From Brachyhypopomus gauderio (Eukaryota > Chordata > Actinopteri > Gymnotiformes > Hypopomidae), in the NCBI RefSeq assembly GCF_052324685.1, contig NC_135225.1:8542915-8606914 (forward strand): DNA of 64,000 bases. Reading direction: 5' to 3'. The position numbers were made by a program, and so were the translations under genes. The notes below the pieces were generated by a model. The model did not search any database. It saw only the letters and a list, made by a program, of their open reading frames with translations, and had not been told where the DNA came from. Within the stretch, counting starts at the first letter, position 1. Each line of letters begins with the position of its first letter. Below, piece by piece: positions 33,843 to 53,240 of the stretch.

Positions 33843-34046
33843 TAAATAACGTTACAAATAAAAGTGAGCACTTCGTTTACAAACTGCAGTGCCTCACAAT
33901 CAATCAAACCGACTATCAATCAAGAGTTTCAAAATGTTTAAGGAAACAAATGGAAAAACAAGATTCTCAACGTGCTTTACTCTAAATGAACGCCTGAAAT
34001 TAGTTTCACTTTCCATTAGTAATTCAAATTTTCCTGATGGACATAT

Positions 34047-35757: not shown

Positions 35758-36735
35758 ATGGCAACCCAGTTTACAATAAGTGAAGCAGAGATCCTTGAGA
35801 TGAGCAGTGTGCTGCAGTCCCATCGGGTCACTGACACTGTGGCTCAGGTGGAAGGCATGCTTCAGCAGATGACTGATGTGACACTGAACATCGCTGTGAC
35901 CGGAGAGTCAGGCGCAGGCAAATCTTCGTTCGTTAATGCCTTCCGTGGAGTTGTTGATGATGCACCCGAAGCAGCGGTGACAGGTGTGACAGAAACCACC
36001 CGGGAGGCCACGGCATACTCCCATCCCAGTGCTCGGAATGTCATTCTGTGGGATCTGCCAGGGATTGGGACTCCCTCTTTCCAGTCAAGCACCTACCTGG
36101 AAGATGTTGGCCTTCTGAAATATGACTTATTCATTATTGTCACATCTGGCCGTTTTCAAGACTACCATTCTGCACTGGCCAAAAGTATAATGCAAGCTGA
36201 AAAGAAGTTCTACTTCGTCAGGAACAAAGTGGACCAAGATTTGGAAGCAAGTGCCAAGCGCAGAATCAAACAGGCTTTAGCGGACGAGGACGTCTTGAAC
36301 TCACTCCGTACGGACTGTGAAAAGAACTTGAGAAAGGGACAAGCGGAAAAGTCACAGGTTTTCCTGATCTCCTGCTTCTATCCACAACGCTATGACTTTG
36401 CTGCCCTCCAGATGACCTTGCTGGAGGAGATGGAGGGCCACAAGAGACACGCCCTGCTTCTGTCGCTACCCAACCTCAGCACAGCAGTAATACAGAGCAA
36501 GAAGGAGGCACTAGCCAGCGGCCTGTGGAAGAGGGCCATGGCGGCGTCCTTGAGCAGTGTCACTGGGGCCCACACGAGGACCCACTCCATTATTCCAAAT
36601 GTGATGAACACACTGAAGTCCTATCAGCAAACATTCTGTCTGGATGTTGACTCTCTGCAACGATTAGCCAGCTTTACGGACATATCATTGGAGGTACAGT
36701 GTTTGGGATTATATGTATCATGTGCATTGTGTTGT

Positions 36736-36772
<37 letters not shown>

Positions 36773-38151
36773 GTATTATATATTTAATATATACACTAAC
36801 AAAGTTAGGGATATTTGGCTTTTGTGTTAAATTTAGGGAAAATGTAAAAGGTTCTTATTACAATGATGCATACTTGAAAATATGGCATTTAAATAGAAGC
36901 ATGTAGTGGTGATTTCCTCATCTCAAACAATATATTGAACAAATGCCAACAAGTGGTGGAGACCAGTCTAATGTAAATAGTTCTGAATGGTCTGACATGA
37001 CACGGGTGCTTCTCATCTAAATTTAATGTGCCTGGAGTTGTGTGGCTTTCATCATCTGGTTCCACAGGCCACTGTTCACGGTGAAGCAGGCACACACACC
37101 GGCGAGAAGCGGCAGCCAATTGCGCACAGCGTACTCTCTACCGGAAGCCACAGCCCCCTGGGGGACTGAATGGGGTGCAGGAAGGGGAGAGAGGACAGAC
37201 CCTAGTGGCAGAGCACCATCCACCACTGGGCATACAAGCACACACACTCAGACAACAACTTGTTTTTTATTGAACAGAGAGAGACACAGACACACAGACA
37301 GGGAGAATTTGTCAGGGAATGCCAATTTACCTAACCTCCATGTTTTTGGACTGTGGGAGGAAACCGGAGACAACCCACACAAACACAGGGAGAACATGGA
37401 AACTCCACTCAGATAGGGACTTGAACCCAAGACCCCAGTGCTGAGAGGCAAACGTGCTAACCACCAACCCACCGTGTTGCCTCAAACACCTGATCAAACA
37501 CCTATTGTGAATTTTGCTCTTAAGTTCCTTGTTAGAGAACATCAATTTGTGCAAAAAATTGAGAGAAACTCACATTAAAGGTTAGAGTGCATTTAGGTTG
37601 ATCCTGAAATTTCACTTGAAAGCCAAATATCCCTAACCTTTTGTGAGTAATGTATATAATATATATTTAGGCCATCAGACTACATAAGTGAGAATTTTTC
37701 CAAAATATCATATGTGGCTGGCTCATGAATGAATATGTGTATGTCCTGCTTTAATAAGTTTAAGTTTATTGTATTTAATAAGTTCACACTGGTTCTATGA
37801 CGTAGCCTTAAAATGAATATGCATTAACATGAGTCAAGTTATATGTTATAAATGGAATGTTGTGAATTGTTTCCACAACAGGAACTTCAGAAGGAGGTGA
37901 CATCCACCTTTGGCAAAGAACTGTCAGCACATACAGTGGAAGGTTTGCTGTCTCAGGCAGCCTCAGTACAGCCAATGTTGGCTAATCAGTTGGAGAAAAT
38001 GGTACCAATTCTGGGCACTATTGTTTCAGGTGGGCTTTCCTTTGTGGGTTCCTACTTCCTGTTTAATTCCGCCCTAAAGGACCTAAGTCAAGATGGAGAA
38101 AGAGTGATGCAGAAAGTCTTTCTTGGCTCTCTTTCCAAACACACGGATTAA
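35758..38151 (+). CDS. immunity-related GTPase (IRG, GKS type), gene 1
   Basis: IRG (p47) GTPases are interferon-inducible dynamin-like GTPases that act on pathogen-containing vacuoles and membranes. Coding exons are 35758-36693 and 37882-38151, joined in phase 0 (donor TTGGAG then GTACAG; acceptor CCACAACAG), giving 401 residues, a usual IRG length. The G domain shows G1 GESGAGKS (residues 49-56), a switch I region TGVTETT (75-81), G3 WDLPGIGTP (98-106) and G4 NKVD (156-159). The second exon gives the C-terminal helical region, with a hydrophobic stretch near GGLSFVGSYFLF. There is no N-terminal myristoylation signal. The open frame continues to 36906, but that is intron read-through. The intron holds a CA array and a fish repeat. 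Two AATAAA signals follow (38209, 38311). It differs clearly from genes 2 and 3, so this is an older paralogue. Confidence 0.9.
36740..36770. repeat. (AC)n microsatellite in IRG gene 1 intron
   Basis: About 31 bp of CA repeat, 47 bp after the exon 1 donor. Confidence 0.95.
37255..37490 (-). repeat. common fish interspersed repeat in IRG intron
   Basis: Contains CCAATTTACCTAACCTCCATG, TTTTTGGACTGTGGGAGGAA, GGGAGAACATGGAAACTCCA and CTAACCACCAACCCACCG, a very widespread actinopterygian repeat consensus that I recognise from many genomes. The class is uncertain. Confidence 0.65.
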
Positions 38152-39497: not shown

Positions 39498-39575
39498 CCT
39501 TTTTGAGTTCACTCAACATTCTGCTTGCTTGAATGGAGAACAAAGAGTCTCTTCAACACCCCATCGAATTCCCAG

Positions 39576-39958
39576 CAACAACTCACTCATTCCTCCTCCC
39601 CTCATTATTAACTCACACCTGTTGCACAACATATATCCAGTATTTAACTTTCCCTTTCCTCCCTGCGAAGTGTTGGCTACCGTTTCTGGACAGCATACTG
39701 AGCATTATATTCATATTGCCTCCCCTTCATGGTTCGCCATTGTTAGTACTCCTCTTATCTCATTTGGATCTGCCCCATTGTACCTTTGCCTAGCTTCTGT
39801 AATTTCTGGATACACCTGACCTGGAGCATTGTTGACGGTGAGATTGGCTTGCGAATTTCTCCATTCTCTCTGCTTTTTCTCCTGGCGCTATTGTTCAATA
39901 AACCCTATGGGTTTAATGTCTGTGTTCGTTTGTGTGATATTATGTACACGTCATTACA
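39576..39958 (+). mobile_element. LTR-like sequence forming the 5' region of IRG gene 2
   Basis: The body resembles the solo LTRs elsewhere in the window: CACCTGTTGCAC, a TATTTAA box, a T/C-rich leader, AATAAA near 39896-39901 and an end CGTCATTACA. A TG start is not evident, so the 5' end is missing. It contains a splice donor, TTGACG then GTGAGA (39839), usable for the non-coding first exon of IRG gene 2. Nearly identical to 48365-48748. Confidence 0.55.
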
Positions 39959-40397
39959 CCTACTAGTTTTAGTGAAAACCAGTTGGAGTCAGATCTGCTC
40001 ACAAAAGTATATTCGTTTCAGAGGGATACTTACTTAGCTGTGTGACGGTATGATTAAACTGCTTTTTCATTGTACTGACTGATATAATTCTAAAGGAGAT
40101 AAAATTTAGTTAATTCAGGTGAGAATCAGAATGAAATGTGAATCAATGTTACAGTAAGTATGGAAAAAAGGTACTAGAAATGTCATGGTTGAATTATCGA
40201 AACACATATTAACTTCAAGTTGTATTTGAATGCTGTTTAAGTCTTATCCACAGTGCTGAAATCAAAGAATGGTTTCTGGTTTATATGCTAGGTATTCTGT
40301 TACTTTCCACTTTCATGTATATGAACTCATATATTTAGTAAGATACATGCATGAATTCTACTGTTACATATGGCAGATAACACACTTTATTTTACAG

Positions 40398-41710
40398 ATG
40401 GAAGACCTGGAACTCATCGGTGTTGAAGAAATTAAAGTGTCACTGGGCTTTGAAGACCTGCCATCAGCTGTTGATAGAATCAAGCATTATTTTGAACAGC
40501 AAAACTGTGTGGAGCTGAATATTGGTGTGATAGGAGAATCCGGTTCTGGAAAATCCACGTTCATTAATGTCTTCAGGGGTTTGGGGGATGAGGAGGAGGG
40601 CAGTGCAGAAACTGGTGTGGTAGAGACCACTAAGGTCCTTCTATGTTACTCTTACCCTAAATACCCAAATGTGAAGTTGTGGGATCTTCCTGGTATTGGG
40701 ACCCCCAACTTCAAAGCTGATGAATATCTTAAAGATGTTGAGTTTGAACGCTATGATTTTTTCATCATCATTGCTTCAGATCGATTCAGAGAGTACCATG
40801 CCAATTTGGCATCAGAGGTAGTTAAACAGAATAAGAAGTTCTACTTTGTTCGCTCAAAGATTGATGCCAACATTGCTGCAGAACAAAGAAGAAAAACATT
40901 CAACAAAGAAAAGACACTGGATAAAATCCGAAAAGACTGCATTGCAGGTTTAGTTATCAATTTATTACCCTTAGGAAGCTAAAGTGGAAAAACCATAATT
41001 GATTATTTAGTATTAGTAATTAAAGTAATATAAATGTTATGTTCTGAGTATTTCTATTTTTAATCCTAGGCCTGGAAAATGTTGGTGTCAACTCTCCTCG
41101 TGTCTTCCTGATCTCTTCCTTTGATCTTAGTCTCTATGATTTCAATGGCCTTGAGGAGACCATGGAGATGGAGCTGCCCCAGCAGAAGAGACATATGCTG
41201 ATGCTGGCACTTCCAAACATCACTCTAGAGATCAATGAGAGAAAGAAGAAGGAACTGCAGAAAAACATATGGAGACTGGCTCTGCTCTCTGTTGGTGCTG
41301 CAGTCATACCAATCCCTTTGCTGAATGCTTCCATATCAATCAGTGCAAATGTTGGCATTTTGGTGTATGAGCTTAAGAAATATTACAATGCTTTTGGTCT
41401 TGACCCTGATTCCTTGCAGAACCTCTCTGACAGATCAGGGAAGCCAGTAGATGAGCTGAAAGCTGTGTTAAAGTCTCCTCTACATAAAGAAATTAGCAAA
41501 GATGTGGTCATTAAACTGCTGTCAGGTAGCAGTTTTTTTGCTGTAGAAGCAGCAGCAGAAACCTGGTTGGGTCTGATCCCGGGTCTGGGGTCTCTAGCAG
41601 CTGGTTCACTGTCCTTCGCCACTGTGTACTACGTATTAAATAAATGTCTCAATGAGCTGGCTCAAGATGTCCACAATGTACTCATAGCTGCACTGCAGAC
41701 AGAGGTGTAA
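40398..41710 (+). CDS. immunity-related GTPase (IRG, GKS type), gene 2
   Basis: Two coding exons, 40398-40947 and 41070-41710, join within a Gly codon (donor GCAG then GTTTAG; acceptor TAATCCTAG) to give 396 residues. The ATG follows directly on an acceptor TTTTACAG (40397), so a non-coding exon must lie upstream; the in-frame ATG at 40269 is in that intron. Motifs: G1 GESGSGKS (46-53), ETGVVETTK around switch I (71-79), G3 WDLPGIGTP (95-103), G4 SKID (153-156), and LISS as the probable G5 position. The C-terminal helical half ends ETWLGLIPGLGSL followed by a hydrophobic helix. A Val-to-Ile and Ala-to-Val change around the P-loop (I45, I56, V58) and LLC at 81-83 differ from gene 3. AATAAA at 42112 may end the transcript. 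Confidence 0.92.
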
Positions 41711-42111
41711 AAATTAATCAGGCATACCAGGGTACTAAAGAAAACATACATTAAATTGCATTTTCTGTTTATCAGCAGTATTTTTTTATTTCACATTTGA
41801 ACAGATTTTTTTCAAACTGGGTTTAACATTCTGCAGAAGGGTTAGGTTTATGCATTTATGAATTTGTCCATATGCAAATTCATTGTGCAAGTTGGAAGAA
41901 CACATTTTTGGCATTTACATTTTGAAATGAATTACTTTTGTATCACACTACAAAGCAATGTGTAAGCAAAATTTTGTATTCTAGTTCATGTTGGACATGT
42001 ACATTTAGAGAGTTAATCAGTAATTATATGGAAATGGGAATTGTACATCCTACACATGTTTTTGTATATGTTTTAAATTCTACAATGTGTGATAGTGTGA
42101 GAGTAAGTTCA

Positions 42112-42117
42112 AATAAA
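42112..42117 (+). terminator. candidate polyadenylation signal of IRG gene 2
   Basis: AATAAA about 400 nt after the stop codon. Confidence 0.4.
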
Positions 42118-42284
42118 TGGTAGCAGTGTAGGTAGTTGTGTGTTTGGTTAGTTAAGTGTTGATGTCTGATGATCTGAGTAGCTAGCTCTCGAAAGTGTCA
42201 ACCAAATATGTTAATCTTGTTTTTTTTTTTCATTTTGTTGTTGTATTATGTCGTATAGTACAGTATACCATATAGCAAGATGCT

Positions 42285-42953
42285 AGCCATAGCCATAACC
42301 ATATGGCAAAAAGTCTTCAATCTCCCCAAGTTCTCACATGTGACACCTCTGCTACGCTCTCTTCACTGGCTTCCAGTAGCAGCACGCATCAGATATAAAA
42401 CCTTGATGCTTGCTTACAAAGCCAAAAATGGACTGGCCCCTCCCTACATGATGCCCATGGTCAAAAGCCGATCCGTACAGCAAACACTCAGAACCTCAAG
42501 CTTGGCTTGACTCGAAACTCCATGCTTAAAGTCTCATGGAAGACAAAGCGCCAGACTATTCTCCGTCCTGGCGCCAAGATGGTGGAACAATCTTCCATTA
42601 GCTGCTAGGACTGCAGAGTCTATTGCTATCTTCAAGCCTAGACTGAAGACCCACCTGTTTGTTGAGTTCTTACCAGAGCACTAACTCAGCTGATACCACT
42701 TGCCGTTGTTCTTTAAATTGTATGTCTGTCTATGGTTATTTGTGCTTCTTGGCAAATGTCTTACTTGCAAAACTCTAGGTAATGACATTGACTCCTGTAG
42801 TTTAGTAGTAGTCTGACTCAATGGTATCTTGAATTCTGGCCTATCTGTACTATTTCCTAGGATGAATTCTGTGATTGGATGCAAAGCACCAATGCTATCG
42901 CTCTGGATAAGAGCGTCTGCTAAATGCCGTAAATGTAAAATGTAAATGTAAGT
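42285..42953 (+). mobile_element. 5'-truncated L2-like LINE
   Basis: The frame LPKFSHVTPLLRSLHWLPVA and AYKAKNGLAPPYM is the C-terminal end of fish L2-type reverse transcriptases. The next part is frame-shifted (RPGAKMVEQS for the usual WN.LP region). It ends in the typical 3' tail GGATAAGAGCGTCTGCTAAA followed by (AAATGT)n. It is a dead copy inserted between IRG gene 2 and an IRG remnant. Confidence 0.8.
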
Positions 42954-43199
42954 ATCACTAGAACGGGCTAGAAGTGCCAAGGGACTGATCTAATAATAAT
43001 AATATTTTCACCCATACATGTTTATATGTATAAAATTAAATAACAATAAAAAATAAATTAAGTCGCAAATATAAATGAACAATTAAAACAATAAAAACAG
43101 ATGAAAACAACCATAATACTGTAGGAAAATATAAGATGTCATGGGACTTCCAGATACAGACAATTTTTTTTTAATAAAGCACATATTGGATTGTCAGAC

Positions 43200-43680
43200 T
43201 TGCGAGAAACATGTTCTGATGAAACCAAGACTGAACTTTTTGGCTGCATTTTAGTGAAGAATCATATCTGCAGGAAACAAGGCACTCTGATCACCTGCCC
43301 AATACCACCCCTCCAGTCAAGCACGGTCGTGGCAGCATCATGATAAGAGCGTGCTTCACCACCAGCAGCACTGCTCCATTCAGCTTTCCCTCAACCCTGA
43401 CCAAAGTCCAGAGATATTCTTAATGGAAACCTTATCTAGAGCACTCGGGAACTCAGGCTGGGCCAAAGTTTCCTCTATCCACAAAACAATGATCGTAAGC
43501 AGACAGTCAAGACAACATAGAAGTGGCTTATAGACAACTCTGTGAATGTGCTTCAATGGCCCAGCTAGTTCTGACTTCAACCCCATCAAATAACTTTGAA
43601 AAGACCTGAAAATGTACACTAAATATCCACATCCATCCTGAAGCAGCTTGATAGAATTTTCCCTTTGCAATCAGTTTGCA
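43200..43680 (+). mobile_element. decayed Tc1/mariner-like transposase fragment
   Basis: GATGAAACCAAGACTGAACT, TTTTTGGCTGC, CAAGCACGGTCGTGGCAGCA and CCCTGACCAAAGTCCAGA are the nucleotide landmarks of the Tc1-like transposase C-terminal half. There are many stops and indels. Terminal repeats are not visible. Confidence 0.6.
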
Positions 43681-43819
43681 AACATTTCTAAATGTTTTCA
43701 CTTTATAATTGAATGCAGAATGATGGAGAGATTCACAAGTTATATTGAGTACTCTTAAGTTGTCACTTTACAGTTTACCCTTTATGAACAGTCTGTTTCT
43801 GATAGCAGGGTGTGTCTAC

Positions 43820-43972
43820 GTTCACACTGGTTCTATGACGTAGCCTTAAAAGCAGAGTACACAATAACATGTGTCAAGTGTGTTATAAATAGAACAGAAA
43901 TAGTTGTGAAATGTCTCCACCCCAGGGACTTCAGAGGAAGGTGACATCCACATTTGACAAAAAGCCCTAACA
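43820..43972 (+). pseudogene. IRG remnant 2: intron end and start of exon 2
   Basis: GTTCACACTGGTTCTATGAC, GTAGCCTTAAAA and ACTTCAGAGGAAGGTGACAT match 37790-37920 of IRG gene 1, covering the intron 3' end and the first codons of exon 2. The acceptor AACAG has become CCCAG, and the frame soon ends at TAA. It shows that a gene 1-type copy once lay between genes 2 and 3. Confidence 0.75.
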
Positions 43973-43999
43973 ATAAGTATATTTATCTGTGATTAACTG

Positions 44000-45640
44000 A
44001 AACAAAGTTTTTTTTTTGTCTCACAGCAAATCCAGTTTAAGATATATTTAGTCATTGTTGATCAGTAGTACCTCTGCCTGATCACCTGCCTGGTCTCTCC
44101 AGAATGACCACCACGCTCATGTTGACGCTCGTAGACGTTACACAGATTCTGGTATGACCAGCTGCCAAACATTCTCTCCATCTCTTGGATGATATATGCA
44201 ATGGAATAACACTCCAGAACTTCTTCTGTTTTGAATTCATGGCACGTTGTTCAATTGCATTAGCTCTTCTCTCTTTCAACACAGTACTGTAGATTTGTTG
44301 AATGGTAGGATCACCTCTTTGCCAATCCTCACTCTGTCTATACCCCCAAACTCACCTCTTAACTGAAGCTTTCACAGCAGCTTATATAGCTGACTTGTCT
44401 TTATTCCCCTCCACAAGTGGCCACAAGTATGCACACACCTCTTCTGTTTTCATAACTTTGAAATCTTGGTCTGCGTTCTTGCGACAGAATTGAACTTTGT
44501 GAATATCAGATCTCTAAACTTTTCTGTAAAAGCCCATTTAAGCACCAGTCACTCTAACTTGCATTCACTATAGTTCTTATTGTTCCTTTTCAGATCCTTA
44601 TAGACAGAACGGGTTCAGACTTTTCTGGGTCTCTGTTTGATATGGGGCCCTTCTACCTGATCTCTGTGACTTTTTTTGAACAGTTTGTTTTTTGATGTGC
44701 GCGCGACATCACTTTGTAGTTTCACTTTAGTTTCATTATGATACACTTGACATTAAGGGGAGATGGGGGGCCCTTCCTTAATTTCGCAGGGCCCTATGCA
44801 GCATGCTTAGTGAGTGTATAGGGTACACCAGCTCTGCATAGGCTATTACTCATTCAGATCACCACTGCCTTTGGCAGAGCATAGCTCCCAAACTATGGTT
44901 TATAGCAGACATCAAATTTGTACTCCCCCTCAATGTGTCATCCACCTCTTCTCAACAGCTCCCAGGTTGGCCATCCCAAGTACCGCACCGCTAATTGTGG
45001 TTAATGAGGACTGAACTTCATGAACATCAGATCTGTGAACTTTTCTATTAAAGCCAATTTAAGCACAAGCAAGTCTTACTTCTTCAAGTCTTACATCCTC
45101 AAAGGGACTCTGACACTCTTTACTCCAAGTGATTGGAGTTTTAGGGGCTCTACCTGTACAAAAGGCCCTACAGGAGCGTAACCATTTAACTGGCTGGACG
45201 TGACGTCATCACTCTGGCAGTTGACGAGTTCGTTTCAGTTGGTCTTTGTGGGGAGCCCGTTGTGCGATGTTCGTCGAGGGATTTTGATTGTATATAGTGC
45301 ATCGTTCGTGCGTACATGACTTAATGTAAGTTTATTGTTGTTCTGGATGGCGGAGGATGTAATGTAGTAGTAGTTGTAATGTAATATGATCACGTTTGCG
45401 TTCGTGTGATCACGGCGCTTTGAGTTCACCGCACGGGTTTAGCTAACTTGTTAGCGGTTAGCACGTGATTATTAAGTTAGTTCAGTTACGATGACTTGTT
45501 TCTTTACAGTGTGTGTTATGTCCGACCCTTACGTTTGTATATTTGTTACCTTATAACTATTTACATAGCATACTATTTCGCTGTTATGAGTAGTTACATA
45601 TTTCGTTGTACAGCGTTATTAAGTCATTAAGACAATTGCA
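44000..45640. other. spacer, no gene supported
   Basis: Mixed sequence with no recognisable exon. 45190-45900 looks LTR-like (AATAAA near 45837, GC-richer 5' part) but no paired ends or target duplication could be found. Confidence 0.4.
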
Positions 45641-45648
45641 TATATTCG

Positions 45649-45662
45649 CCACCAGAGGGTGC
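45649..45662 (+). promoter_or_regulatory. CTCF-like motif
   Basis: CCACCAGAGGGTGC has one mismatch to the CTCF core. Such motifs are frequent in fish repeats, so significance is uncertain. Confidence 0.25.
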
Positions 45663-45909
45663 AAAGGCACCAGTTGTACTGTTTATTCTATTTGTGCTTG
45701 TTATCTGTAAATGGAGATTATACATCTCATATCTGTATTTGTATTTTCAGAACCACACACACAACTACACATTTGCACTATACACAGCCATCCTGTAACA
45801 CACACCTCACATTCATATCCCTGCCTTGAACTGAAGAATAAAGAGTTGAATGCATTTTGGCCTCAAGTGGTGTTCTGGCCGACACACCGGGGTTGAATAT
45901 AGCAAAAGA

Positions 45910-47670
45910 GGGTAGACCAGTGACCAGCTCTAACTCTCAAGTTTAGTCTTCACTACACTACCCTTCCTTGTCTTACCTCCTACCAGCTTCTGTAATAGTT
46001 CATGAACCTAAACACCTGTCTCACACATTTGACTGTACCAGGAAAAGACTGTGTGTGTAGGCCTCTGACCTTCTCATTGCGTACTTGGACCAATTTTTCT
46101 GAGATCACAAAAGATACCAGGACTTTTTCTCTGCACTGGATAGCACACATCATTCACTCGCTTCACCTGTGCATTGACTATATCCATCTATTGGCTCTAC
46201 TCCCCCTCGAGTCCTGAAGAAATCCTGCAGTCTGCTGATTCATTTCGATGATGTCAGGAAGTCCCTTCATGTCGTTCACATCTGGGTTCGCATTGGTTCG
46301 CATATACACATGCTTCCTGTAAAGTGTAAAGTCTCCTGTAAACATACAGTGAAACAGTGAAAGGAAAAAACATGAAAACATCAGAAAGATGCAGTTCCCA
46401 GTGACCTCAAAGATGTGTGATTGACCAGATGTGAGCTTGTTTAGCTCTACGCCTGTTTGCTCTTCCCAAGTACCCCAGATAGTTCCCCTGAAATTCCACA
46501 ACTTGAATTTTGTCTGGAATTTTTCAACCTGAATTTCGAAGACCTGAATTTTTATTAGGCTGTATTATTTTACCTGCATTTTTAATGTCAGATTTTTTAC
46601 CTTAATTTTTTGATAGTTGACTATTTTACAATTGGAAAATGAAGACCTGAATTTCAAATATGTAAAGATTTTCATAGACCGTTTTTCAAGAATCATGCTT
46701 TCTGGTTAAGGTGACACTGATTTATTCCCGTATAGTAACCGCACTGACACTGGACACTAACAATGGACCGGTACATTCTTTCATTGAAAATATGAATTGG
46801 TTTCCTAAAGACAAGTCCGAAAGACTGAAAAAGCAGAGAAACTCTGTCGGATGCATGTTTGTTGCACGTTTCAGTTATGTCCGTCTACGCTTCCCTCAGG
46901 TGGTGTGTGTTCTTGGATCGGATTGTTAAATTCGGTTTCGTTTTCGTTACATGCATCAACAGTTGAATCTGGAGACTTGCGCTTTGTCAAACTTCATCTT
47001 TGGTCTGTACGTTCATCGTCCGCGATCGCAACCGTGTTTATTTGCGCTGCTGTTTAAAGGTAAGATTAAACGGACTTTTCGTGGTTCCTAAAGAACTATA
47101 ATAACACAATATCTTATATTGAATTAGACGAAATGAAAAGTAAAAGAAGATCAACCTATTTAACAAAAATGCTGCTGGTGTTGTTCCCAATTCTAACTCC
47201 ACGGCAGAATTTTTCCACGACATGGAAAAAAAACAATAAATAAATTACTGGTTAAAGTCATTCAATCTTAGCATTATTATATCACAATCACTTTTATGAT
47301 TTTATTGAAATCATCTCTAATATGTATTTTCTGAATGTCTCCGATTTAACAGCTCAATTCTAATTCTTCAGGTTAAAGGTGCTTCCTCCTTTAAACAGGT
47401 ATAACATGTATTTGTATCTGGCTACAAACAAAGCTGCTTTATGAATTCTTGCAACGCAGACAGGTCTTAAAAGCATTTGACACCGTTTTACTCTTATTCA
47501 GTATGGGCATATCTTTTTTTAAACTTAGTCAATGTAGTCATGCTTAAATTGCAAAGCTTTTATTTATCATTTATAAGTTTTTTTATCTGTAATTTCACTT
47601 GAGTGCTTTTTAAACATGTTGAACCACAGCATAGAGGCTACAAATTCAAACTACTATGCAGCCTTACAAC
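45910..47670. other. spacer, no gene supported
   Basis: AT-rich DNA with degenerate GAATTT/ACCTGAATTT repetition at 46490-46660 (ACCTGAATTTT units), probably repeat-derived. No coding signal. Confidence 0.5.
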
Positions 47671-47675
47671 ACACC

Positions 47676-48074
47676 TGTCATGTAAGGCCGCACCCTCCTC
47701 CCCTAGCGGGTTCCCTCATGTCTTTGTTCCTTGCCCGTTCATCCCACCCTGCTCGTTTGTCTCCGTGATTCCCTATTTATTACCACGCCCCTAGTGTCAT
47801 TGTCATCACCTGTTCCTTGTTTCAGTTCTGTGTATATTAGCCCCTGAGTCTCCCTTGTCGGTTATTATGTAATTATTAAAGGGCATACCATCATCGTCGT
47901 CACTGAAACAATCCGGGGTCATAACAGGAGGGCAGGCCAAGTAACATGCATAGACAGGCATGACAAAACAGGAAACACGAGTAACGGGCGATAAAACTGA
48001 ATACTGGAACACACCACGGAACCAAGACAACCAAAATAACCGACGTGACAGCTAGGGGAGGAGGGTGCGGCCAC
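47676..48074. mobile_element. inverted pair of LTR-like fragments
   Basis: The left arm (47676 to about 47926, plus orientation) starts TGTCATGTAAGG, shares GGGTTCCCTCATGT and GTCATTGTCATCACCTG with the solo LTR at 56980-57411, and has a late ATTAAA. The right end repeats the first part in inverse: GGCCGCACCCTCCTCCCCTA-type 22-bp arms are perfect at 47686-47707 and 48051-48072. I read this as two copies of the same LTR family abutting head-on. No target duplication is seen. Confidence 0.55.
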
Positions 48075-48332
48075 ATTTAACCTAAATATCTAAAATGCTA
48101 TAATAGCCTAAAATGGACACTTGCTGCTCATCCAACACTTCTCAGTCTTGGCCATTTGCTATTTTATCAGAATAAGGGCGCGAGGCTGCCAGATTTTGGG
48201 AAGTATGCAAACACCAATTAAAACTGAAACTAATCAATCGCCATTGTTCATCATTCTCATGTAATAAAGTCCCTGTGTTATCCTAACGTTACTACCTGCT
48301 TACGTACTACACTTTCCCTCAGTCTGTCCCTC

Positions 48333-48345
48333 GGTTTCTCTTTCA
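48333..48345 (+). promoter_or_regulatory. ISRE upstream of IRG gene 3
   Basis: GGTTTCTCTTTCA contains a perfect inverted ISRE core TTTCNNTTTC (complement GAAAGAGAAACC). It lies about 20 bp upstream of the block shared with IRG gene 2, in unique sequence. Confidence 0.5.
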
Positions 48346-48364
48346 CAAGCCTGCATCTCTGGCT

Positions 48365-48748
48365 GCAACAACTCACTCATTCCTCCTCCCCTCATTATTA
48401 ACTCACACCTGTTGCACAACATATATCCAGTATTTAACTTTCCCTTTCCTCCCTGCGAAGTGTTGGCTACCGTTTCTGGACAGCATACTGAGCATTATAT
48501 TCATATTGCCTCCCCTTCATGGTTCGCCATTGTTAGTACTCCTCTTATCTCATTTGGATCTGCCCCATTGTACCTTTGCCTAGCTTCTGTTATTTCTGGA
48601 TACACCTGACCTGGAGCATTGTTGACGGTGAGATTGGCTTGCGAATTTCTCCATTCTCTCTGCTTTTTCTCCTGGCGCTATTGTTCAATAAACCCTATGG
48701 GTTTAATGTCTGTGTTCGTTTGTGTGATATTATGTACACGTCATTACA
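48365..48748 (+). mobile_element. LTR-like sequence forming the 5' region of IRG gene 3
   Basis: Almost identical to 39576-39958, with the same TATTTAA box, AATAAA and CGTCATTACA end. The donor TTGACG then GTGAGA is retained (48629). Its left edge abuts unrelated DNA, which marks one border of the duplicated block. Confidence 0.55.
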
Positions 48749-49197
48749 CCTACTAGTTTTAGTGAAAACCAGTTGGAGTCAGATCTGCTCACAAAAGTAT
48801 ATTCGTTTCAGAGGGATACTTACTATTATGTGAGCAGCTGTGTGACGGTATGATTAAACTGCTTTTTCATTGTACTGACTGATATCATTCTAAAGGAGAT
48901 AAAATTTAGTTAATTCAGGTGAGAATCAGAATGAAATGTGAATCAATGTTACAGTAAGTATGGAAAAAAGGTACTAGAAATGTCATGGTTGAATTATCGA
49001 AACACATATTAACTTCAAGTTGTATTTGAATGCTGTTTAAGTCTTATCCACAGTGCTGAAATCAAAGAATGGTTTCTGGTTTATATGCTAGGTATTCTGT
49101 TACTTTCCACTTTCATGTATATGAACTCATATATTTAGTAAGATACATGCATGAATTCTACTGTTACATATGGCAGATAACACACTTTATTTTACAG

Positions 49198-50509
49198 ATG
49201 GAAGACCTGGAACTCATCGGTGTTGAAGAAATTAAAGTGTCACTGGGCTTTGAAGACCTGCCATCAGCTGTTGATAGAATCAAGCATTATTTTGAACAGC
49301 AAAACTGTGTGGAGCTGAATATTGGCGTGACAGGAGAATCCGGTTCTGGAAAATCCACATTCGTTAATGCCTTCAGGGGTTTGGGGGATGAGGAGGAGGG
49401 CAGTGCAGAAACTGGTGTGGTAGAGACCACTAAAGTTCCTACATCTTACTCTTACCCTAAATACCCAAATGTGAAGTTGTGGGATCTCCCTGGTATTGGG
49501 ACCCCCAACTTCAAAGCTGATGAATATCTTAAAGATGTTGAGTTTGAACGCTATGATTTTTTCATCATCATTGCTTCAGATCGATTCAGAGAATGCCATG
49601 CCAATTTGGCAGCAGAGATAGTTAAACAGAATAAGAAGTTCTACTTTGTTCGCTCAAAGATTGATGCCAGCATTGCTGCAGAGCAAAGAAAAAAAACATT
49701 CAACAAAGAACAGACACTTGATGATATCCGAAAGGACTGCATTGCAGGTTTAATTATCAATTTATTACCCTTATTAGGAAACCAAGGTGGTTAAATGATA
49801 ATTGATTAGTCAATTTCAGTAATTAATTAAATTGTGATTTCTAAGCATTTTTCATTTTTTAATCCTAGGGCTGGAAAACGTTGGTGTTAACTCTCCTGCT
49901 GTCTTCCTGATCTCTTGCTTTGACTTTGCTCTCTATGATTTCAACTGCCTTGAGGAGACCATGGAGAAGGAGCTGCCCCAGCACAAGAGACATGTGCTGA
50001 TGGTGGCGCTTCCAAACATCACTCTAGAGATCAATGAGAGAAAGAAGAAGGAACTGCAGAAAAACATATGGAGACTGGCTCTGCTCTCTGCTGGTGTTGC
50101 AGCCATACCAATCCCTTTGCTGAATGCTGCCGTATCAATCAGTGTAGATGTTGGCATTTTGGTGTCTGAGCTTAAGAAATATTATAATGCTTTTGGTCTT
50201 GACCCTGATTCCTTGCAGAAACTCTCTGACAGATCAGGGAAGCCAGTAGATGAGCTGAAAGCTGTGTTAAAGTCTCCTCTACATAAAGAAATTAACAAAG
50301 ATGTGGTCATTAAATTGCTGACAGGTAGCAGTTTTTTTGCTGTAGAAGCAGCAGCAGAAACCTGGCTGGGTCTGATCCCGGGTCTGGGGTCTTTGGTGTC
50401 TGGCTCACTGTCCTTCGCCACTGTGTACTTCATACTAAATCAATGTCTGAATGAGCTGGCTCAAGATGCCCACAATGTACTCATGACTGCACTGCAGACA
50501 GAGGTGTAA
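49198..50509 (+). CDS. immunity-related GTPase (IRG, GKS type), gene 3
   Basis: Coding exons 49198-49747 and 49869-50509 give 396 residues, with the same splice positions as gene 2 (donor GCAG then GTTTAA; acceptor TAATCCTAG). The start again directly follows a TTTTACAG acceptor. G1 GESGSGKS (46-53), G3 WDLPGIGTP, G4 SKID (153-156) and LISC at the G5 position are intact. Differences from gene 2 cluster at the P-loop and switch I (T45, V56, A58, PTS at 81-83) and are spread through exon 2, while residues 1-44 are identical. The last helix carries AQDAHNVLMTALQTEV. It is likely interferon-inducible because a perfect ISRE core lies near its presumed first exon. AATAAA at 50637 is a likely polyadenylation signal. 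Confidence 0.92.
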
Positions 50510-50636
50510 AAATGGATCTCCTCAATCTATTGAAGGAAACTTGCATTAGATAGCATTTACTGTTATCAATTTTATTTTGTTTTATTTCACATTTGAACTA
50601 GATTTAATGTAATGAAAGCTTTTGCAGTTCTTAATT

Positions 50637-50642
50637 AATAAA
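50637..50642 (+). terminator. candidate polyadenylation signal of IRG gene 3
   Basis: AATAAA 128 nt after the stop codon. Confidence 0.55.
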
Positions 50643-50649
50643 CCATAAA

Positions 50650-51088
50650 CACACTATAACCTTCCAGATTTCAGATTTTTCTTTGGATGATGTTACATGT
50701 TACTTTTTGTTGAACTTTATCCGGGCTCAGTATTTTTATAAATGAGGCTGAAACATAGATAACCATACTGGGTGGGATGAAGATAAATAATTGCCATCAG
50801 TTACTAGGAGAGATGAATTATGCCATCCAATAAAAGACACCTGCCAATAGTGGCCCTGTATGTCACATTAATCATGTAGTGTATTTGTAACAGACACAAA
50901 TACTTCATCTATGTCTACCACCTGCTGCCTCATGTCAGGATATGTTTTCTGCCATTTGAAATGGCTGACTCGATTTACTTTGAAATTAATGTATTAACGT
51001 CATTAATGTATATAAATGAATACAATGTTTAGTAGAAGATTTTAGCATTTTCAAGTTTGGAATTTGTACTCATGAAATAGGATGTTGG
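50650..51088. other. intergenic, nothing recognised
   Basis: AT-rich 3' flank of IRG gene 3. Confidence 0.6.
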
Positions 51089-52924: not shown

Positions 52925-52944
52925 TATAGGGCTTGAAAAGGTGT

Positions 52945-53240
52945 GCCCCCTCTGCTCCATCTGCCCCTCTGCTCCATCACCCCCTCTGCTCCATCTGCCC
53001 CCTCTGCTCCATCTGCCCCTCTCCCTCATCTGCCCCATATGCCCCTCTGCTCCATCTGCCCCATCTGCCCCTCTGCCCCATCTGCCCCTCTGCTCCATCT
53101 GCCCCATCTGCCCCCTTTGCCCCATCTGCCCCCTTTGCCCCATCTGCCCCCTTTGCCCCATCTGCCCCCTTTGCCCCATCTGCCCCCTTTGCCCCATCTG
53201 CCCCTCACCCTCATCTGCCCCATCTGGCCCATCTGCATGT
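52945..53240. repeat. minisatellite, 18-bp core CTTTGCCCCATCTGCCCC
   Basis: The right part (about 53105-53200) is five or more near-perfect 18-bp units; the left part has variant units (CTCTGCTCCATCTGCCCC). Because 18 is a multiple of 3 and no unit has a stop, all frames on both strands stay open (QMGQRG hexapeptides on the minus strand). These are not genes. Confidence 0.9.

Follow-up and report, generated by a model that had tools for sequence, protein, structure and literature searches.

In the genome of the ray-finned fish Brachyhypopomus gauderio, two IRG GTPase genes, here called g2 and g3, are almost identical in their 5' parts and differ throughout from codon 43 onwards. Both lie in a stretch of 64,000 nucleotides (the window; assembly GCF_052324685.1, contig NC_135225.1, positions 8,542,915 to 8,606,914 of the forward strand), the numbering of which is used throughout. 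A third gene, g4, occupies 83311-84616 in the same numbering, outside the window and 19 kb past its end. We propose, with a probability of roughly 75%, that g3 is an IRG gene of the g4 type, that a copy of the g2 5' part recently replaced its own during the repair of a break, and that this repair was ended by end-joining. The two genes and the parts of them concerned are as follows.

40398 to 41710, forward strand: g2, predicted irgf-type IRG gene, with coding exons 40398-40947 and 41070-41710 (396 amino acids).
49198 to 50509, forward strand: g3, predicted chimeric IRG gene, with coding exons 49198-49747 and 49869-50509 (396 amino acids).
39575 to 40525, forward strand: donor tract in g2, with most of an old repeat, the remaining upstream sequence or intron 1, and the ATG exon to codon 43; 948 of its 951 sites are the same as in 48365-49325.
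48365 to 49325, forward strand: copied tract in g3, the recipient, placed by the alignment and the break statistics, with the direction taken from repeats and flanks.
40505 to 40526, forward strand: zone of the right breakpoint, comprising codons 36-43 and running into the strand that precedes the P-loop; g2 and g3 first differ at 40526.

A global alignment of 39575-41810 with 48365-50607 gave a homologous block of 39575-41808 in g2 and 48365-50605 in g3. Left of 40526 there were three substitutions (39801, 40035 and 40086) in 951 sites and one 10-bp indel, and the 95% interval of the divergence on this side was 0.07-0.92%. To the right, 115 of 1274 sites were substituted. The best single break was located at 40526 in g2 and 49326 in g3, which is the third base of codon 43, with a likelihood gain of 54.9 log units. 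None of 2000 shuffles gave so strong a break (the best reached 11.6), and uniform identity along the block is thereby excluded. The longest run without a substitution comprised 439 sites and was matched by none of 5000 shuffles, the longest run in a shuffle being 243. The original prediction, made from the letters alone, had described near-identical 5' copies with few differences and a 10-bp indel, a fall of identity at codon 43, differences throughout the rest of exon 1 and exon 2, and a far more diverged short intron. The counts agree with this description: beyond the break the exons differed at 24 of 422 and 45 of 641 sites, coding identity nonetheless being 93-94%, and intron 2 (40948-41069 and 49748-49868) differed at 23 of 116 sites, with a further 11 gap columns. 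The start of the block, which had been placed at 39576, is at 39575; homology stops there, with no moderately diverged zone upstream.

The excess of identity between g2 and g3 is beyond chance and beyond selection. Selection is ruled out because the noncoding part left of the ATG differed at only 3 of 823 sites, compared to 23 of 116 in intron 2 (Fisher p = 3e-19). Purifying selection or a low-mutation region was accordingly rejected as the reason for identity in the 5' part, which is mostly noncoding and has a very different counterpart in g4. Because of the same noncoding contrast, we are almost certain that sequence was copied recently between g2 and g3, long after the gene duplication.

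The two edges of the tract are of different kinds. The right edge falls in coding sequence that the genes share, and the left edge involves the following elements.

48364 to 48366, forward strand: left joint in g3, where a long terminal repeat (LTR)-like fragment meets the interrupted old repeat; the two overlap by 2 bp, GC.
39551 to 39958, forward strand: old low-copy repeat native to g2, crossing the tract edge at 39575 unbroken.
47217 to 48364, forward strand: part of an LTR-like, high-copy repeat with both ends cut, in what is presumably intron 1 of g3; it contains a smaller insertion at about 47677-48071.

To judge from the other copies of both repeats, the left edge is a non-homologous joint of two cut repeats rather than a homologous tract end. 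A genome search with the old repeat returned 17 matches, namely g2, g3, a g4 exon and 14 repeat matches, some of them adjacent to each other. Of these 14 loci, eight could be aligned past 39575 in g2, each by 9 bp or more, and in g3 no locus extended more than 2 bp to the left of 48365; seven of the loci were included in a joint alignment. For the LTR-like repeat there were 2995 first-look candidates, 40 of which were scored, and seven copies were fetched. All six copies that reach the joint run on with repeat sequence that is absent in g3, and the seventh (L041) ends short of it. Two of the copies (L038 and L039) were 99.4% alike, leaving five independent ones at the joint. The copies have about 960 bp in common, some extending further, and an LTR is a fair guess for the nature of this repeat. 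The insertion of about 390 bp at 47677-48071 has inverted ends, resembling those of a small DNA transposon. That the LTR-like fragment is filler from the same repair is disfavoured, its best copies among the 40 scored of the 2995 candidates being only 91-95% alike, although a closer source is possible.

The left joint also bears on the assembly. Direct exclusion of collapsed or misjoined copies would need reads, but a joint in non-homologous sequence offers little cause for a misjoin, the copies are separated by the three substitutions and the 10-bp indel, and the window is without N and lies inside a 23.6-Mb contig. We regard an artefact of this kind as highly improbable.

Both outer flanks of g3 are common to g4.

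46824 to 47153, forward strand: g3 upstream segment common to g4 (81288-81557 there, at 73-88%), with no third place in the genome search.
50605 to 50888, forward strand: g3 3' flank common to g4 (84729-85079 there) and not to g2, reached by no other gene.

In the genome searches, 2 of 2 candidates were scored for the upstream segment and 3 of 3 for the 3' flank, and in these and the self-comparison g2 had neither flank. Since the flanks are common to g4 and the 5' part to g2, g3 is g4-type outside the tract and g2-type within it. Right of codon 43, g4 aligned to g2 at 88% and to g3 at 92%, and the divergence of intron 2 was similar in all pairs (23/116 for g2-g3, 18/116 for g2-g4 and 18/116 for g3-g4). 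In 40397-40525, g4 differed from both g2 and g3 at 29 of 123 sites, and in intron 1 beside the exon (40200-40396) it was barely alignable (84/177).

Very probably the copying went from g2 as donor to g3 as recipient. We infer this direction strongly, because the old repeat is unbroken in g2 and cut in g3, and because the flanks of g3 match g4. Sequence identity alone is blind to direction, and a copy of the g3 5' half in g2 has to be considered. The old repeat in g2, however, runs unbroken over the tract edge with family sequence on both sides, both repeats are cut in g3, and the outer flanks of g3 match g4 and not g2, which makes copying into g2 very unlikely. We also rejected a recent whole copy of g2 whose 3' half was overwritten later. 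The 3' half of g3 is not the recent part, because it has no near-identical source elsewhere in the genome (best match only 89-90%), a comparison that also covered the fetched stretches with the IRG matches.

It is most likely that a different 5' half of g3 was replaced, because the other parts and the flanks of g3 are g4-like and the 5' part of g4 is very different. The gene conversion of the 5' half that was originally predicted therefore holds as recent copying, given the noncoding contrast, but an evening-out of two similar 5' halves was probably not what happened. When a remnant of the former N-terminal exon was sought upstream of g3 by tblastn, only known genes and weak, chance-like matches were returned.

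The event was an internal replacement and not a crossover, because g3 kept its flanks both upstream and downstream. Unequal crossing over of g2 with a gene like g4 would yield a hybrid with a g2 5' part and a g4-type 3' part, but it would also remove the intergenic sequence and the g3 upstream flank, and both are present. Its reciprocal product, with the opposite halves and a duplicated spacer, did not occur in the self-comparison. We give such a crossover next to no chance.

How the copy was made can be suggested from its edges. A double-strand break would have occurred in g3 upstream of the P-loop, and the gene-side broken end would have invaded g2 by means of the shared sequence around codons 36-43. 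Synthesis may then have proceeded outward along g2 for at least about 950 bp, from codon 43 to codon 1, through intron 1 and into the old repeat. On the far side there would have been no homology for normal annealing, so that the copy may have been joined by end-joining, with the 2-bp overlap, to the other broken end inside the LTR-like fragment of g3 intron 1. We favour this one-ended invasion followed by end-joining because one edge lies in shared coding sequence and the other in unrelated repeats. The original N-terminal exon half of g3 would have been lost, and the product would carry the N-terminal 43 residues of g2 on the GTPase and C-terminal parts of g3, downstream of g3's own candidate first exon. 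The non-homologous ending of the tract probably belongs to the same event as the copying.

It may be argued that a longer upstream piece of g2 was converted or duplicated into g3, and that a separate deletion later brought the LTR-like fragment up against the middle of the old repeat. Both ends of that fragment are cut, so deletions have occurred here, and no feature of the joint gives its date, either on its own or relative to the tract. This course of events needs one extra step, and no match to 38.3-39.57 kb of g2 was found upstream of g3; we consider it unlikely.

Several points weigh against repair of a single break as the source of g3. The evidence comes from one genome only. The left end of the LTR-like fragment is also cut, at 47217, and with both ends cut there has been more than one rearrangement in the g3 intron; a later deletion could have made the joint. 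A 2-bp overlap is fairly frequent by chance and proves nothing alone. The flanks are what suggests that the former 5' half of g3 was g4-like, and the 3' flank shared by g3 and g4 is not wholly unique, 74 bp of the g4 copy being found again at 86854-86927. Finally, g4 also diverges more from g2 and g3 left of codon 43, which possibly points to an older event at the same place.

With regard to this older event, synonymous differences between g2 and g4 amounted to about 10.5 of 26 in codons 1-43 compared to 33 of 242 beyond (Fisher p = 0.003, from rounded counts), and the same contrast between g3 and g4 gave p = 0.0004. The stronger difference of g4 left of codon 43 reflects either an earlier exchange at nearly this position, or homogenisation among the three genes in their 3' halves, or, for part of it, a faster N-terminal change. 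Within the 3' half, the synonymous divergence between g2 and g4 was patchy, with 11.5 of 50 in codons 44-116 and 1 of 40 in codons 117-183 (p = 0.01, rounded counts), and this weakly suggests occasional small exchanges. A scan for small tracts over the 176 variable sites of the 3' half found a run of 11 sites at 41431-41490 at which g2 and g3 agree against g4 (1 of 5000 shuffles). This could be a second small exchange or, equally, a cluster of changes in g4. For the other two pairings, the longest runs in the 3' half were unremarkable (1119 and 785 of 5000 shuffles).

At the protein level, the tract takes in residues 1-42, together with the next two bases, which belong to codon 43. With the phmmer offset of 30 to Irga6 (1tqd, at the start of the match), it corresponds approximately to Irga6 residues up to about 73 and ends within the strand preceding the P-loop. 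By the same offset the P-loop lysine falls on Irga6 residue 82, which we take to be the known P-loop lysine. The frame and the splice acceptor are retained in g3. As read from its sequence, g3 would be a frame-preserving chimera of the N-terminal helical part of g2 and its own GTPase and C-terminal parts.

The copied tract may also have affected how g3 starts. A candidate first exon of g3 lies within 46824-47153, with a splice-donor-like site at 47060 that is conserved in g4, and the copied old repeat brings its own donor-like site at 48628 (39838 in g2). Two alternative starts of g3 are thus conceivable. Strict matches to the interferon-stimulated response element (ISRE) occurred in 60 kb at 34002, 46934 and 48333. 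The match at 48333 falls inside the LTR-like fragment. The one at 46934 stands upstream of g3 only, a 6-bp gap disrupting its g4 counterpart, and is only a lead toward interferon-inducible expression, if g3 is expressed as we infer. A broader proposal seems to us possible rather than probable. In it, an inherited long-tract conversion in the germline, ended by microhomology and keeping the frame, exchanged the helical N-terminal portion of an immune GTPase. The first intron of the recipient would also have gained a 5' segment of the donor that carries a candidate start derived from the repeat and a donor-like site, giving g3 two starts. Codon 43, directly before the P-loop, would be a point of repeated exchange in the cluster, an older break close to it separating g4 from g2 and g3.

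The wider family was surveyed by a profile search for IIGP over the 796.5-Mb genome, in which the contig of the window is C15. There were 12 matching stretches, seven on C15, two on C28, two on C13 and one on C7, and the seven on C15 represent four genes, namely g1 near 35758, g2, g3 and g4. The last three have two coding exons each, encode 394-396 amino acids and are stop-free; the Pfam IIGP scores of g2 and g3 were 314 and 331 bits against a cut-off of 24. Their coding intron follows KDCIAGL and precedes the strand VFLIS (g3 aligned to Irgb10). According to Bekpen 2005 (PMC1297648), the single coding intron of fish irgf genes lies close to where helix 4 of the G domain ends. The intron placement in g2, g3 and g4 agrees with this, helix 4 being assigned by position. 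From these features g2 and g3 are predicted to be IRG (IIGP) GTPases of the irgf type.

Some further observations concern the other genes. The gene g1 (35758-36906) is an IRG gene without the irgf intron, and its frame continues beyond GTACAG, a donor-like sequence near 36694, and enters a CA repeat; its last coding part is probably in a further exon, the location of which was not found. Around g4, a repeat of about 575 bp occurs three times (L009-L011: 72194-72767, 79135-79706 and 87898-88467), two of the copies being 99.7% identical. The piece of the g4 3' end at 86854-86927 (L011), at 98.6% identity over its 74 bp, is 2 kb past g4, and no coding match to a further IRG copy came up when 84620-93900 was searched with the g4 protein by tblastn. 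One C13 match (L005) has an internal TAG and may be a pseudogene; the second is 300 bp further, and as the two cover overlapping parts of the IIGP profile, they are perhaps two neighbouring genes. The two C28 genes (L012-L014) aligned over about 1.5 kb at 84%, with a common tandem repeat array near one match end. In the window, 52944-53236 holds a tandem array of short imperfect repeats, within reading frames that are open on either strand.

IRG genes serve in defence and evolve fast, and this locus would illustrate how one repair event can create a chimeric member, with the donor, the recipient and both edges still readable. A literature search by title and start of abstract, beyond the reach of which most subscription papers lay, found no paper on conversion in fish IRG genes among the entries listed, and the term 'gene conversion' is absent from the main text of Bekpen 2005 (PMC1297648). 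Compared to the fish irgf genes of that paper, the genes here are likewise IRG GTPases with one coding intron, but one member is a recent chimera. As in interlocus (ectopic) gene conversion between tandem paralogues, an internal block was copied non-reciprocally, identity breaks off sharply and the outer flanks are unaltered; the recipient g3 keeps its own flanks, both common to g4. The mean conversion tract, according to a review (PMC3924818), is on the order of 10 to 100s of bp. The g3 tract, at least 951 bp, is long against this mean, and one of its edges is without homology. The closest resemblance is to long-tract conversion with non-canonical termination in mammalian cells, for which Hartlerode 2016 (PMC5104497) gives microhomology or added bases at 9 of 9 cloned breakpoints. 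Both have a homologous edge and, if the g3 joint was made together with the tract, a short-overlap join to a resected non-homologous end; in g3 one tract end lacks homology to the recipient, both repeats being cut at 48364/48365. That system concerns an induced break, a reporter and tracts of several kilobases, whereas g3 is an inherited coding outcome, the mechanism of which is deduced from one genome. In summary, the event in g3 is of a known kind, of which it makes a clear new case, and it is a natural counterpart of the termination pathway studied by reporters in cultured cells. What the analysis adds to the original prediction is the direction of copying, which gene was the recipient, and the left edge without homology.

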